Source: a virus
Direction: 5' to 3' (one strand)
Length of the DNA stretch: 24,508 nt
Virus record (IMG/VR): IMGVR_UViG_3300003537_000021
Coordinates: 1-24,508 of that record
Positions 15,098-24,507 of this stretch are shown piece after piece. The stretch's first letter is position 1, and every line of letters begins with the position of its first letter. Both the position numbers and the translations under genes were made by a program. The notes beneath the pieces are model-generated. The model did no database searches. It worked only from the letters and a program-made list of their open reading frames with translations, and had not been told where the DNA came from.

Positions 15098-16939
15098 TTA
15101 TCTTATCTTTAGTTCTGAGATAAATCTTCGAGCCAAATATCCCTCATTAATTCTCCCTATTTTAATTGTTAAGCTGTTCATATCCCCCGTGCCTTGAGTC
15201 GATAATATCTCTGCATTTTCTATAGAGGAAGAGACATTATCTTGAATAACAACACCGTCTACACTAAGTCGTTGCGTCCCGTTGTCTACAAGGGATATAA
15301 TGGCTCCTGCAGACGCTGTATAAAACTCCAATGTCCCTGTACTTCCTTCAGGGTTATCATGCTCACCCGATATCACTGCTTTGACCTGATTAAAAGGAGA
15401 GTTATACATCTGAAATACAAGTAAGTCAGTATTCTCATTTGCCCACCCTATACCATATTCCTCATGTATATACATTTTATCTTTAATAAAATATACATCC
15501 CCGAAGTGTGACAAGTAATCGCTACTAGTTGCATGTCCTGCAATGATAACCATCCACCCCCCACCATCTGTCTCCATATCGCAAAATATATGACATTCCC
15601 TCTCTGCAATAAGGATTTTATAGAAGCCAGAACCGATATCTCCTTCGTATGCATACCCTGGCTTAGGATTTATATACTCTAAGGCAGAATGAGGGATATA
15701 TCCATTTGTATATCCTGCAACTCCATCTTTTTTAACTATAGTGATAGTGGGACCAACAGGATCGACTATCAAATGTGGTGTTTCTTGTTCTCCTGGGATA
15801 GAAACAGGTTTATTCATTTCAGTAGCGAGAAGATGAAATCCTTTAAAGTACTTCCTCGTAAGAACAACTCTTTTTAGGATATCGTAGACAGTTGTAACGA
15901 TATCTGTCTTTTCATTTTCTCTAAACCATTCCACGAAATCATTTTTCACTGTTGCCGTATACCCAGCTACTTGAAATTCTTCCCCGTTTAGGATTCGAGT
16001 CATATCAGAAGCTATATCTCTAAGATATGCTTCGTCAGCCTGAACAATAATGTTGCTTGATGCCATTATCGTATTGTATTTTCTATCTGCCCAATCTAAT
16101 TCCCTATCATTAGGAATATATTGCATCACGGCATAATCAAGAAGATAGCGCTGATACTCATTTAAGAAATTCCTGCCATTATGTCTCCACAGTATATCGT
16201 CTACACTGCGAGGGTATAATGTATATCTAATAGTGTCATCTGTTTGTGAAAATACTTTGATTGTTCTTTTCGCGGTTGGATTCTCTGCTAAGAATTCTAA
16301 ATCAACTTTTAATCTAAACAATATCTTGTTTTCTGGACCAGAAATTAGAGTTTTTAGTACAGCAAGCTGATTCATGTACTCTATCTTTGGTCTGTACCCC
16401 ATAATAAATTCATTATTATGAATCGTTAATTTATCGTTCATTGGAGTATTTCTAACCCCTATTTCATTAGGCCAATTATTCCCCTCTGCAACATCCAATA
16501 GTAATAAATTATATCTATAATATTCATCGTGAAATAAATTGGTATAGAACCACAAATTTGCGGATATAAGCTGGTTGTCGCCACTTGATGGATTTTCAAA
16601 AGTATAATCAAACACTTCCTCTTTGTTTAACGGTATTAAATCACCATAGTGGGTCTCAAAGTTAGGATTATATGGTATCTGTATCTCTTCGAAACCTGTT
16701 TTCGTTCGTTTACCATTCCCATCAAGAATATCCCAAAAGAACGATTGTTCACAATCTATATATATATTAAAAACTCCAAAATCTGGCATCCATATGTCTG
16801 TTCCACCAAACCAAATTTCAATAGTACCATCGCTGTTTATTTGATCATACAAATTATCATCTGATAGTCTCATTTTTAAATCAGCATCTTTAAAGAAACC
16901 AAAATGACCTAATTTAAAAGCATCTATATTCTCTGCCAT
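15098..16939 (-). CDS. Tail fibre/adhesin-like protein with a fibrinogen-like C-terminus
   Basis: 613 aa. The C-terminal 200 residues begin like a fibrinogen C-terminal domain: GSGFYKILIAE (about 435-446), CHIFCDMETDGGGWMVI (449-465), with the family's CDM..DGGGW core at 453-462. The rest of that domain is degenerate; its last part (SLTIKIGRINEGY, ARRFISELKIR) is strand-rich. The N-terminal 400 residues are beta-rich and Tyr/Asn-rich (DNLYDQINSDGTIEIWFGG near 28-46) and probably attach to the virion. In phages such lectin-like domains are thought to bind host surface glycans, so this is a likely receptor-binding protein (inference). Its ATG abuts the stop of the upstream gene, with GGAGAATTATAG before it, so the two are co-translated. 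Confidence 0.7.
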   Translation of the reverse strand: MAENIDAFKLGHFGFFKDADLKMRLSDDNLYDQINSDGTIEIWFGGTDIWMPDFGVFNIYIDCEQSFFWDILDGNGKRTKTGFEEIQIPYNPNFETHYGDLIPLNKEEVFDYTFENPSSGDNQLISANLWFYTNLFHDEYYRYNLLLLDVAEGNNWPNEIGVRNTPMNDKLTIHNNEFIMGYRPKIEYMNQLAVLKTLISGPENKILFRLKVDLEFLAENPTAKRTIKVFSQTDDTIRYTLYPRSVDDILWRHNGRNFLNEYQRYLLDYAVMQYIPNDRELDWADRKYNTIMASSNIIVQADEAYLRDIASDMTRILNGEEFQVAGYTATVKNDFVEWFRENEKTDIVTTVYDILKRVVLTRKYFKGFHLLATEMNKPVSIPGEQETPHLIVDPVGPTITIVKKDGVAGYTNGYIPHSALEYINPKPGYAYEGDIGSGFYKILIAERECHIFCDMETDGGGWMVIIAGHATSSDYLSHFGDVYFIKDKMYIHEEYGIGWANENTDLLVFQMYNSPFNQVKAVISGEHDNPEGSTGTLEFYTASAGAIISLVDNGTQRLSVDGVVIQDNVSSSIENAEILSTQGTGDMNSLTIKIGRINEGYLARRFISELKIR

Positions 16940-21622: not shown

Positions 21623-22201
21623 ATGAAAATTAAATTATTAAACACCCCGACAGCAGAATTTATTGATACAGCCCTAGGGCAATGCTGGGGAAAAGGACCA
21701 TATGAACACCAAACAGGTCGAGGTAGAGAACGGATAGACCGAATATGTAATAAAATGAAACATAGCTCAATGTTGCGTTTCACTACCCTCATTTTTGAAT
21801 TCGAATTTAGCACATCCGTCCTACTTGAACTTAGTCGCCATCAGGTAGGAGTTTCCTTGGCTGTGAAGAGCAGTAGATACTGCACTAAACAGAATCCCGA
21901 TGATATAAAAGTTGAATTGTCACAGAGTGATATTGTTAATGCAATGTTGATTCGACATACAGATGAGATCATTAAGCTGATTAAACAAAACCCTAGGTTA
22001 GGAAATGATGATTTAAAGCTTCTATTGCCTCAAGGGTTTATTTATAAAGGTCAGGTGCAATTCAATGTGCAAAGTTTACAGCATTTTATTAAGCTTCGAT
22101 TGAGTACATCTGCACATTTCCACATAGTCGATGTAGCTCAGGCTTTACTCAACGAAATACCAAAAGATTTGCAATATCTATTCATTGATGTTGCAAAATA
22201 A
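21623..22201 (+). CDS. thyX: Flavin-dependent thymidylate synthase ThyX
   Basis: 192 aa, slightly short for the family. The ThyX signature is recognisable at 70-86 (LSRHQVGVSLAVKSSRY; the usual form is RHR-x7-S, here RHQ). The helix before it is also typical (MKHSSMLRFTTLIFEFEF). The C-terminal substrate-site helix is present (FNVQSLQHFIKLRLSTSAHFHI, Arg159). It converts dUMP to dTMP using methylene-tetrahydrofolate, FAD and NADPH, raising the thymidine supply for AT-rich phage DNA. It differs from the usual sequence in the segment after Arg159: the common A-Q-x-E-I-R reads AHFHIVD here. Whether this affects activity cannot be told from sequence. It has its own promoter and stands alone; its stop is 12 bases before the -10 box of the next transcription unit. 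Confidence 0.9.
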   Translation: MKIKLLNTPTAEFIDTALGQCWGKGPYEHQTGRGRERIDRICNKMKHSSMLRFTTLIFEFEFSTSVLLELSRHQVGVSLAVKSSRYCTKQNPDDIKVELSQSDIVNAMLIRHTDEIIKLIKQNPRLGNDDLKLLLPQGFIYKGQVQFNVQSLQHFIKLRLSTSAHFHIVDVAQALLNEIPKDLQYLFIDVAK

Positions 22202-22219
22202 AGTTTTACTCGCTATAAT
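22191..22219 (+). promoter_or_regulatory. Sigma70-type promoter in front of the structured RNA
   Basis: TTGCAA (22191-22196), 17 bases, TATAAT (22214-22219). It is the best -35/-10 pair in the window and overlaps the end of thyX. Initiation is expected near 22226. An imperfect inverted repeat (AGTTTTACTCGCT / AGCGATAAAACT, 22202-22240) straddles the -10 box and could be an operator, or a hairpin at the end of thyX RNA. Confidence 0.6.
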
Positions 22220-22225
22220 TCGACT

Positions 22226-22454
22226 ATGAGCGATAAAACTCATTCTAAAATATACATGCCACCTTGGCAAGTTTGATTCTAGGGTATCTCGGAAACTTGT
22301 TTCCGAGAACCTGCTTAGTAGTGCTCAAAATAATACATTTGGAAGGGTCTCAAGCGCTTCGGATAGTGTTCTTACAAATAGGAAATTTCGATTTTCTTTT
22401 TGCGAGACACTAGACTTTTCCAAATGTATTATAGGTGCGGAGCGCTTGAGACCC
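22226..22454 (+). ncRNA. Candidate structured RNA with crossed (pseudoknot) pairing
   Basis: This fills the 317-base gap 22202-22518, which has no credible gene. In order: hairpin TGCCA/TGGCA (22257-22269); perfect 10-bp hairpin TCTCGGAAAC/GTTTCCGAGA (22287-22308); arm A (22330-22344); arm B (22345-22361); a 49-nt hairpin (22364-22412) with a UUCG loop at 22387-22390; arm A' (22418-22432); arm B' (22438-22454). A and A' are complementary over all 15 bases. B and B' pair over 17 positions with one G-U. The order A-B-A'-B' is crossed, so both can form only as a pseudoknot; otherwise they are alternatives. B contains the palindrome AAGCGCTT. No T-run follows B', so it may be the leader of the 22519 gene rather than a separate RNA. 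It matches no RNA family I recognise. Confidence 0.6.
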
Positions 22455-22475
22455 ACTCCACACTTGAACTATATT
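22446..22475 (+). promoter_or_regulatory. Possible second promoter before the Rha-like gene
   Basis: TTGAGA (22446-22451), 18 bases, TATATT (22470-22475). The -35 lies in arm B' of the structured RNA. If used, the Rha-like gene would have its own short leader of about 37 bases, independent of the structured region. Confidence 0.35.
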
Positions 22476-22518
22476 ACATAGTACCCCCTCACAACTTTTT
22501 TGTACGAAAGATATTTAC

Positions 22519-23262
22519 ATGAACGAATTAATTGAATTGAATCCACAGGAACTATTTCTGCAGAATACTGGTTTGACAATGACCTTGAAGCAAATCGCTG
22601 AGAAATATGGGAAAGAAAACGGAAAACTTGTAAGCGATTTTTATAGAGCAATAAGTAAAGTTACAGAGGACAGATTAACTACTCTGACATACGAGGAGTT
22701 GTTAATTGACCAGAATTTGGGCAATGGAGCCACTAGAAAAATCAAGACAGTTGCCATGGATTTCAAAACAACAGTATGGTTTATAGCTAAATTTGACGAG
22801 AATATAAGGCTTGATATTGTTAACTATGCATTTGAAAATATTCAAATAGCCAAAGAGCAAGAAATAGCTATTGTAAGAAAAGAGGCTAAAAAACCAAAAA
22901 AATACAAAGATGGAACAGCAGGGCTGAGACGATGTTTGCTTGACGAATACGAAGATGACGAAGAGTTACCTAGCGAAAATGAAGCATGGAGTGCATTAAT
23001 ATGGAAAGGAGCAATTAAAACGAAGGCGAAAGTGACTATCATAAGGAGATTCATACCAAGCTTTGAAGGAATTATTGGTTCATCTAAGAAATATGGGATG
23101 CCGACTTTTAAACCTAATATGATTAGGCAGATCATCACCGAGTGGCGTGAAGCTGGAGAGCCTAAACAGGATGAATACGAGCGATTAGCTAAGGAGTTTA
23201 GCGACATTTCTAAAGATTATAGAGCTAAACTTGAAGCATTAAAGCAAAACGATTTAGAATAA
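22519..23262 (+). CDS. Rha-like phage regulatory protein
   Basis: 247 aa. Residues 15-105 look like the Rha/antirepressor-type DNA-binding domain: LTMTLKQIAEKYGKENGKLVSDFYRAI, a variable loop, then VAMDFKTTVWFIAKFDENIRLDIVNYAFE. Residues 106-130 are a charged linker rich in Lys and Glu. The C-terminal domain opens YKDGTAGLRRCLLDEY, like the YEDGTKSLRKW stretch of the KilA-N protein at 1191, so the two probably share a C-terminal domain fused to different DNA-binding heads. The C-terminus is a helix (YERLAKEFSDISKDYRAKLEALK). Likely role: transcription control or antirepression. The ribosome site before the ATG is weak (GAAAG), and the gene follows the structured RNA region, so translation may be regulated. 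Confidence 0.65.
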   Translation: MNELIELNPQELFLQNTGLTMTLKQIAEKYGKENGKLVSDFYRAISKVTEDRLTTLTYEELLIDQNLGNGATRKIKTVAMDFKTTVWFIAKFDENIRLDIVNYAFENIQIAKEQEIAIVRKEAKKPKKYKDGTAGLRRCLLDEYEDDEELPSENEAWSALIWKGAIKTKAKVTIIRRFIPSFEGIIGSSKKYGMPTFKPNMIRQIITEWREAGEPKQDEYERLAKEFSDISKDYRAKLEALKQNDLE

Positions 23263-23282: not shown

Positions 23283-23720
23283 ATGAACGATCCCATCATA
23301 ATAGATATAGACAACATTCATATTAAGCGAACAATGCTCAATATGATCAAATGCAAAGATGAAGACAATAAGATTCTTGTACAAGAAGAGAATGCTACGG
23401 AGTTTCCAGAAAATACATTTTCATATGATTATATAACGACAGCAGTCTCAACGACTCATAGTATGAAGAATGACAAGGGAAAATGGAAAGATGTATTGAC
23501 CTTCACTTCTACATGGAGCGAAGATATAGCCTTGGCGATATTCAACAATACAGCGGCCACTCTAAAAGAGGCTATTGTTATTGCTGCAACAAGCTGTGAG
23601 GCTTGTGTCAATATATTAGCTAATACCTATGGATTGAGTTGGGGATATCCCTATGATAGTGATGAGTTTAGAAATTGTGATACCTCTTGCGATTTCTGCA
23701 GGGGAAATAAACATGAGTAA
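23283..23720 (+). CDS. Hypothetical protein with C-terminal Cys cluster
   Basis: 145 aa, family not recognised. The start has GGAAAG nine bases upstream. The first 80 residues are mixed strand and helix (PIIIDIDNIHIKRTMLNM, KDVLTFTSTWSEDIALAIF). The second half holds a helix with SCEACVNILANTYG, and the last 17 residues hold CDTSCDFCRG, so up to five Cys could form a zinc site. It overlaps the next gene by 8 bases, so it is translationally coupled to the AAA ATPase and may be its partner (inference). Confidence 0.6.
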   Translation: MNDPIIIDIDNIHIKRTMLNMIKCKDEDNKILVQEENATEFPENTFSYDYITTAVSTTHSMKNDKGKWKDVLTFTSTWSEDIALAIFNNTAATLKEAIVIAATSCEACVNILANTYGLSWGYPYDSDEFRNCDTSCDFCRGNKHE

Positions 23721-24507
23721 TTTTATTACAAAAATTCACCCCAAACATCTATCTAAAGATATTATTGTGCATAGATGTGACAAACACCTCATCCTGACTG
23801 GAGAGAGTGGATGTGGGAAAACCACATTCTTAAAATGGTTGCACACTGAATTGATACAATCCTCCCCATCCGAATCTATTAGTGGCTCTACACAGGAGGT
23901 GTTCGCATGGACTAACAATAGCATATACGCCTACTTTAGAGCAAAGAGACGATTCAAGGCGTATCAACCAAAAAGTCCCAAAGTCATAGAACTATCAAAA
24001 GAGAGAGGATCGAAGTTGAATCCGAACTTCATACAATACATTCTCAATCTAAAAATAGAATCTTTGTTTGCTCAGATAGATAAGGATATTGAAGCTGTCA
24101 AAGAGTTAGATAATTGGTTTGACAGATTTGAAAATATATTGAAAAAGATATTCAATGACGATTCTTTTAGACTAACATTTGATAGAAAAAACTATGAGTT
24201 CTGGATGGAGAGAGATAACAAAGAGCGTTTCGACTTGCATCATTTATCTGATGGTTATTCTGCCATTATAGATATTGTTACAGAGCTTATTTTGAAAATT
24301 GAGAACACGGAATCCAAAAGTTTTGAATGCGAGGGAATCGTCCTGATAGATGAGATAGAAGCTCACACACATGTAGAGCTTCAAAAGCGAATCCTACCCT
24401 TGCTTACGAGCTTCTTCCCTAATGTCCAATTTATAGTTACAACTCATAGTCCATTCGTATTATCCTCGGTGGAAAGCGAAAATGTGGTATTGTCAACAGT
24501 AGTTTAG
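23713..24507 (+). CDS. ABC-type AAA ATPase (AAA_21/OLD-like)
   Basis: 264 aa from the ATG at 23713 (GGGGAAATAA upstream); the open frame before it lies inside the previous gene. Walker A is GESGCGKT (30-37); an ABC signature-like HLSDGYSA lies at 176-183; Walker B is IVLIDE (209-214) with Glu214; the H-loop is TTHSP with His245. The middle (100-165) is a helical insertion. This is the single-protein ATPase type related to OLD, RecF and SMC heads, found in DNA repair proteins and in many defence or anti-defence systems, usually with an effector gene next to it. No nuclease domain is present, and the protein stops soon after the H-loop, one base before the window ends, so any downstream partner is out of view. 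Confidence 0.8.
   Translation: MSNFITKIHPKHLSKDIIVHRCDKHLILTGESGCGKTTFLKWLHTELIQSSPSESISGSTQEVFAWTNNSIYAYFRAKRRFKAYQPKSPKVIELSKERGSKLNPNFIQYILNLKIESLFAQIDKDIEAVKELDNWFDRFENILKKIFNDDSFRLTFDRKNYEFWMERDNKERFDLHHLSDGYSAIIDIVTELILKIENTESKSFECEGIVLIDEIEAHTHVELQKRILPLLTSFFPNVQFIVTTHSPFVLSSVESENVVLSTVV

Follow-up and report, generated by a model that had tools for sequence, protein, structure and literature searches.

Mutually replacing helices in the leader of a phage Rha-like gene: a candidate two-step RNA fold

The window analysed here is a phage fragment, the whole 24,508-base virus record IMGVR_UViG_3300003537_000021, and our subject is its region between thyX and a gene for a Rha-like regulator. 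We propose, with a probability of roughly 0.6, that this region is the 5' leader of the regulator gene and that its RNA folds in two steps, gating the gene behind it. A helix of segments A and A' would form first during transcription; as segment B' emerges, a helix of B and B' would become the stable fold and break A:A', and either the delay or the final fold would gate the downstream gene. A ligand, a protein or an antisense RNA might bias the switch. Leaders of the same layout, found across phage regulator and early genes, look like a recurring regulatory device rather than a one-off.

Results

Crossed complementarity in the window

Two long complementary pairs lie in crossed order in this leader, A with A' and the adjoining B with B' (Table 1). 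A first-pass annotation had described both, and on recounting its description held: all 15 pairs of the A:A' core are Watson-Crick, and the 17 pairs of B:B' consist of 16 Watson-Crick pairs and one G-U. The 49-nucleotide (nt) UUCG hairpin that it had placed between B and A' came out as the minimum-energy fold, and its promoter, TTGCAA-N17-TATAAT, was also recovered. We found that A:A' runs six pairs beyond the 15 (GGGUCU 22345-22350 with AGACUU 22412-22417), to a total of 21 with two G-U, and that B:B' is able to extend into A (UGGA 22340-22343 with UCCA). Since A:A' reaches 6 nt into B and B:B' can reach into A, the two helices compete at their border.

This crossed complementarity is not due to chance. 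The annotation had judged two such pairs within 125 nt implausible as an accident, and among 150 dinucleotide shuffles the best shorter arm was indeed 10, as against 14 in the window. The window fold has a z-score of -6.6 relative to shuffles, and in a set of 44 noncoding stretches from the window and its relatives no other is as extreme as the leader. In the layout scan described below it scores 35. When leaders were tested one by one, none of 100 shuffles attained the observed score in the window or in four leaders of the related contig G013, introduced in the next section. No match to Rfam families at the curated score was found for the window, nor for several relatives.

Leaders of the same layout elsewhere

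Searches for relatives of the leader by DNA similarity (phages, plasmids) and by exact patterns (IMG/VR) found none; a weak 36-nt match in Wolbachia phage WO lies inside the terminase gene and was judged to be chance. Terminase relatives of the window have its structural genes without the leader module. The route to relatives was instead the endolysin, which led to L098/G013 (G013 below), a 76 kb phage contig on which the product of a KilA-N gene has a C-terminal domain matching that of the window Rha-like protein. The leader of this KilA-N gene is unrelated in sequence and has the identical order A-B-hairpin-A'-B'. A profile of the domain showed that five G013 genes encode it; their leaders were examined without prior choice on RNA, and four of the five (genes 49255, 48312, 27134 and 27936) have crossed, overlapping stems that differ in sequence.

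A sequence-blind layout scan of the whole G013 record, from which terminal repeats and a few matches within coding sequence were left out, found leaders 27134, 48312 and 49255 again and added three more, one preceding a helicase gene (13020) and the other two preceding unknown genes (4135; 69779-70291). The six scores were 33, 31, 27, 27, 23 and 23; the maximum was 24 in 24 strand-shuffles of G013, and other viral DNA, 768 kb in all, likewise reached 24 at most. Because the G013 shuffles reach 24, the two leaders scoring 23 are significant only in the leader-specific test (0 of 100 shuffles). G013 has 24 leaders that are 110 nt or longer; of these, 18 had a score of zero and four had scores of 23-33. 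We also sampled KilA-N and Rha genes from 399 Campylobacterota-order genomes, and the loci scanned yielded one further clear case, the leader of an AntA antirepressor gene (G056, L183). The comparisons that follow cover nine leaders: that of the window, seven from G013 and the AntA leader.

Common anatomy and compensatory changes

The shared order is promoter, A plus B, a loop of ~23-55 nt (in most cases containing a hairpin), A', a spacer of 5-41 nt, B' and start codon, with A/B at the promoter side and B' before the gene in all nine leaders. With G-U pairs included, A and B share 3-13 nt in every one of the nine, and in G013 27134 and 4135 B lies entirely within A; because of this overlap, both full helices cannot coexist. 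Where the distance from B' to the start codon was measured it is 26-64 nt (the window has 64 nt), and it is longer for the 69779-70291 open reading frame (ORF). Where a TATAAT box was found in G013 leaders it lies 9-55 nt upstream of A, and in three of them A starts 9-13 nt downstream of the first base of TATAAT, where the transcript is expected to begin. The window's A begins ~100 nt further on than its expected transcript start, and the 5' domain there is not common to relatives. In state B (B:B' formed) of most relatives, B:B' is a closing helix round one or two hairpins and the halves of A' pair elsewhere.

Homologues in which the helices drift without compensating changes had been named as what would speak against a structured RNA. 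We checked this in three paralogous G013 leaders aligned on TTAGAGG/CCTCTAA, a small sample registered by hand and without gaps, and saw the opposite, pairing being kept in both helices. Two-sided compensatory changes occur at 6 of 16 A:A' pairs, and most B:B' pairs that vary are likewise altered on both sides with pairing kept. The G-U pairs within the helices, together with the fixed orientation to the gene in all nine leaders, argue that the leader acts as RNA, as the first-pass annotation had supposed, rather than as a DNA element.

Folding order and read-out

Constrained folding of 22226-22518 gave nearly equal energies for the state with A:A' (state A, -83.3 kcal/mol) and for state B (-84.8 kcal/mol). 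When the window transcript was lengthened stepwise, A:A' had a probability of 0.999 up to 22450, and B:B' one of 0.99 from 22460. Base-pair probabilities of transcripts ending before versus after B' were then compared for the nine leaders; by this computation A:A' yields to B:B' once B' is complete in seven of them, the order (A-A' first, B-B' later) that had been offered as the switch option.

In each of the seven leaders tested, state B is predicted to close B' and to leave the stretch from B' to the ribosome-binding site more open. In the window the downstream stretch is G-poor and C-richer, with 18 C and 7 G in 76 nt. Because state B hides B', frees a G-poor stretch and leaves the ribosome-binding site unchanged, the output is likely to be ribosome loading (standby) or Rho loading; our best guess would allow in addition for an effect on message stability. 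A leader ORF was considered as the read-out and rejected, as it occurs only in some leaders: a start-codon scan found short TTG ORFs like that at 22446..22481 in two G013 leaders and in none of the others.

Several observations count against a two-step gate. The folding was computed with nearest-neighbour energies, which ignore pseudoknots, proteins and kinetics. The leaders of G013 27134 and 4135 remain in state A by computation, and those of 27936 and AntA shift back toward A with 30 more nt, so that their final state is uncertain. Masking of the Shine-Dalgarno sequence was not found as a read-out, the ribosome-binding site being about equally open in both states (0.65 and 0.65 in the window). 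The G013 26170 protein is the closest homologue of the window protein, and its leader is a nested variant with a 19-base-pair (bp) stem and a local competing hairpin. The element is absent from the structural relatives G003, G005 and G006, in which 42 leaders score at most 18. Finally, the nine examples come from three genomes only, seven of them from one contig.

Discussion

The earlier interpretation is supported in part: a structured RNA, a switch in which A-A' forms first, and a cis-acting leader for the Rha-like regulator, whose closest G013 homologue matches Pfam Phage_pRha (1.3e-4). A stable pseudoknot as a conserved feature is not supported. We suggest, tentatively, that these leaders may form an undescribed class of phage leader RNA that has its layout rather than its sequence as the defining trait, in which overlapping, mutually replacing helices would serve as a modular timer before several early or regulator operons of one phage, each copy with a private pairing code. 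If this is true, Campylobacterota phages carry a reusable RNA timer recognisable only by crossed, overlapping complementarity, and sequence and covariance searches would miss such timers. The private-code copies in one genome would be natural compensatory mutants for studying how gene expression is controlled by co-transcriptional refolding, and the antirepressor leader RNAs described in P1, P4 and Gifsy-1 would gain a new design.

Antisense control and known leader RNAs

The alternative that survives best, which we nevertheless consider unlikely, is antisense control of the C4 or P4 CI kind: a 5' part of the leader would be processed off and, on other transcript copies, pair in trans with A', B' or both, giving immunity by blocking an antirepressor-type gene. 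The position before Rha, KilA-N and AntA genes matches the arrangement of C4 (P1 icd-ant), P4 and IsrK (PMC4825925). C4 RNA of phages P1/P7 (RF01695; c4-a1b1 RF03163) is likewise a leader before a phage antirepressor operon, with one antisense segment and two alternative partners in one transcript; each of our leaders also has one segment with two complementary partners, and in most B-states B:B' encloses two hairpins, much as the long closing stem of C4 does. The P1 partners, however, are nested (b' a' - a2 b2) and short (7-8 nt), whereas those found here are crossed and mostly of 9-25 pairs. The C4 covariance model, which gave 68.8 bits with the P1 control, found no match in 22150-22560 of the window (E value up to 10) or in two G013 regions (E value up to 1). 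Nor did we find a C4-style pairing of a'/b' with upstream and downstream partners: the order is crossed, and a second target for A' downstream of B' is not beyond chance (combined z -1.1). The stretch from B' to the gene yielded no intrinsic terminator. As for gene context, the leaders do stand before antirepressor-type genes (Rha/ORF6N, KilA-N, AntA), though not exclusively, a helicase gene being preceded by one too. Given the crossed order, the long helices, the lack of a C4 model match and the lack of a further target, the leader is, to judge by its sequence, outside the C4 family despite the similar position and logic.

By analogy, the nearest functional models are P4 CI with IsrK, and the metastable toxin mRNAs. 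P4 CI RNA with seqA and seqC, and IsrK-orf45-anrP of Gifsy-1, are phage leader RNAs whose alternative pairings control replication genes or an antirepressor (PMC4825925). They resemble our leaders in being phage leaders with alternative pairings; in P4, however, where immunity involves premature transcription termination, the antisense segment is flanked by its two targets and works in trans, whereas here both partners are downstream. In the toxin mRNAs of H. pylori aapA3 (PMC6733600) and of timP (PMC11228461), leader hairpins that form early, or in one conformation, give way to a mutually exclusive fold, and the computed replacement of an early helix by a later, exclusive one in seven of nine leaders is of this kind. 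Those mRNAs mask the toxin's ribosome-binding site and have an antitoxin RNA, whereas here the site is unmasked in either state and no toxin or antisense gene was seen.

Pseudoknot, stability and DNA-level explanations

A stable pseudoknot, with both helices present together as a protein-binding, ribosome-binding or exonuclease-resistant element, is improbable. The 15-bp and 17-bp cores of the window do not overlap and could coexist with a sharp bend between A and B, and shortened helices could coexist in general, most easily in the window. The full helices of the relatives nevertheless overlap, B can be fully inside A, and coexistence is thus not conserved. Loops of 0 and 5 nt are moreover ill-suited to a coaxial H-type pseudoknot of this size.

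Still less probable is a processing or stability element, in which the long 5' helix would be an RNase III site or would protect the 5' end from decay. A:A' does have 12-25 pairs in most leaders, and where A follows so closely on the -10 box, as in three G013 leaders, state A would leave the 5' end base-paired. Such an element leaves the second, competing helix and the conserved order unexplained, and in the window the distance of A from the predicted 5' end speaks against it. A DNA-level element (operator, recombination site or replication origin) is very improbable, for although there are long inverted repeats and the window's cumulative GC skew is lowest near the leader, the skew tracks gene direction, and G-U pairs, a fixed promoter-gene orientation in nine of nine leaders and many different sequences in one genome all point to RNA. 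The RNA may also form a dimer through AAGCGCTT or act as a decoy, two further options raised by the first-pass annotation.

Features of the window and additional observations

The coordinates of the leader and of the gene behind it are collected in Table 1. The strongest inverted repeat of the 5' domain is 22287-22308.

Table 1. Leader features in the window and the gene that follows
Feature	Coordinates	Strand	Remarks
Sigma-70-like promoter TTGCAA-N17-TATAAT	22191..22219	+	Consensus match 10/12; predicted start ~22226
5' domain	22226..22314	+	Predicted hairpins 22226-22243, 22257-22269, 22282-22314; computed fold
Segment A	22330..22350	+	Core 22330-22344, six extra pairs use B bases; 21 pairs with 22412-22432, two G-U
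Segment B	22345..22361	+	17 pairs with 22438-22454, one G-U
Central UUCG-loop hairpin	22364..22412	+	Predicted -15.8 kcal/mol, z -4.5; present in both states
Segment A'	22412..22432	+	Core 22418-22432; complementary to A
State-A alternative hairpin (AGGUG.GGAG / CUCC.CACUU)	22433..22465	+	Includes B'; constrained fold, fold of 22433-22530
Segment B'	22438..22454	+	Complementary to B
Possible 11-codon leader ORF	22446..22481	+	TTG start 8 nt after Shine-Dalgarno-like AGGTG; across B'; lead only
G-poor stretch, B' to ribosome-binding site	22455..22505	+	Predicted more open in state B
Rha/ORF6N-type regulator gene	22519..23262	+	C-terminal domain shared with phage KilA-N proteins (domain matches)

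The terminase of the window has a relative (67%) encoded by a contig from a Sulfurimonas single-cell genome. The thyX gene upstream of the leader matches Pfam Thy1 (4e-21), and its phage relatives are distant only; searches for close relatives of ThyX and of the Rha-like protein found none. Directly 3' of the thyX stop codon we observed a near-perfect hairpin, 22202-22240, which includes the -10 box of the leader promoter.

The protein encoded at 22519..23262 matches ORF6N with an E value of 0.0033, or 2.4e-5 when the window's own genome was searched, neither match reaching the curated cut-off, and it matches an anti-repressor PHROG at E 0.017. Taken with the Phage_pRha match of its homologue, these weak matches make Rha-like a fair label. 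Beyond this gene lie a 145-amino-acid ORF and then, at the contig end, a gene for a Septu PtuA-type ATPase (23653-24507; PADLOC 8.8e-81), whose stop codon falls at that end. PtuA relatives have 404-412 amino acids, with an HNH (PtuB-like) gene behind them; the copy in the window is therefore either shorter or affected by the assembly end.

At the other end of the window a tandem pair of near-identical genes (50-607 and 619-1179) encodes KilA-N and T5orf172/MUG113 domains; it is followed by a KilA-N gene (1191-2018) whose C-terminal domain is that of the Rha-like protein. The product of 15098-16939 has a fibrinogen C-terminal-like domain (Pfam E 1.1e-5) and may be a tail or appendage protein.

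Two structured intergenic regions of the structural relatives were considered and set aside, that of G006 as containing a short ORF and a terminator-like hairpin and that of G005 as a different RNA. G005 has a convergent intergenic region (L022, 5320-5569) with z -8.5, a 15-bp closing stem, several hairpins and no Rfam match. In G013 (L119, ~68975-69139) a 165-nt near-perfect inverted repeat between two genes could form one very long hairpin. Three of the Campylobacterota-order genomes (G056, G070 and G083; loci L183-L194) each carry 11 or more KilA-N genes and 8-12 Rha genes, and in G056 CRISPR-like repeats, TTTCTTATCCCCACTGGGGATCGCCGAAC, adjoin KilA-N/Rha genes.
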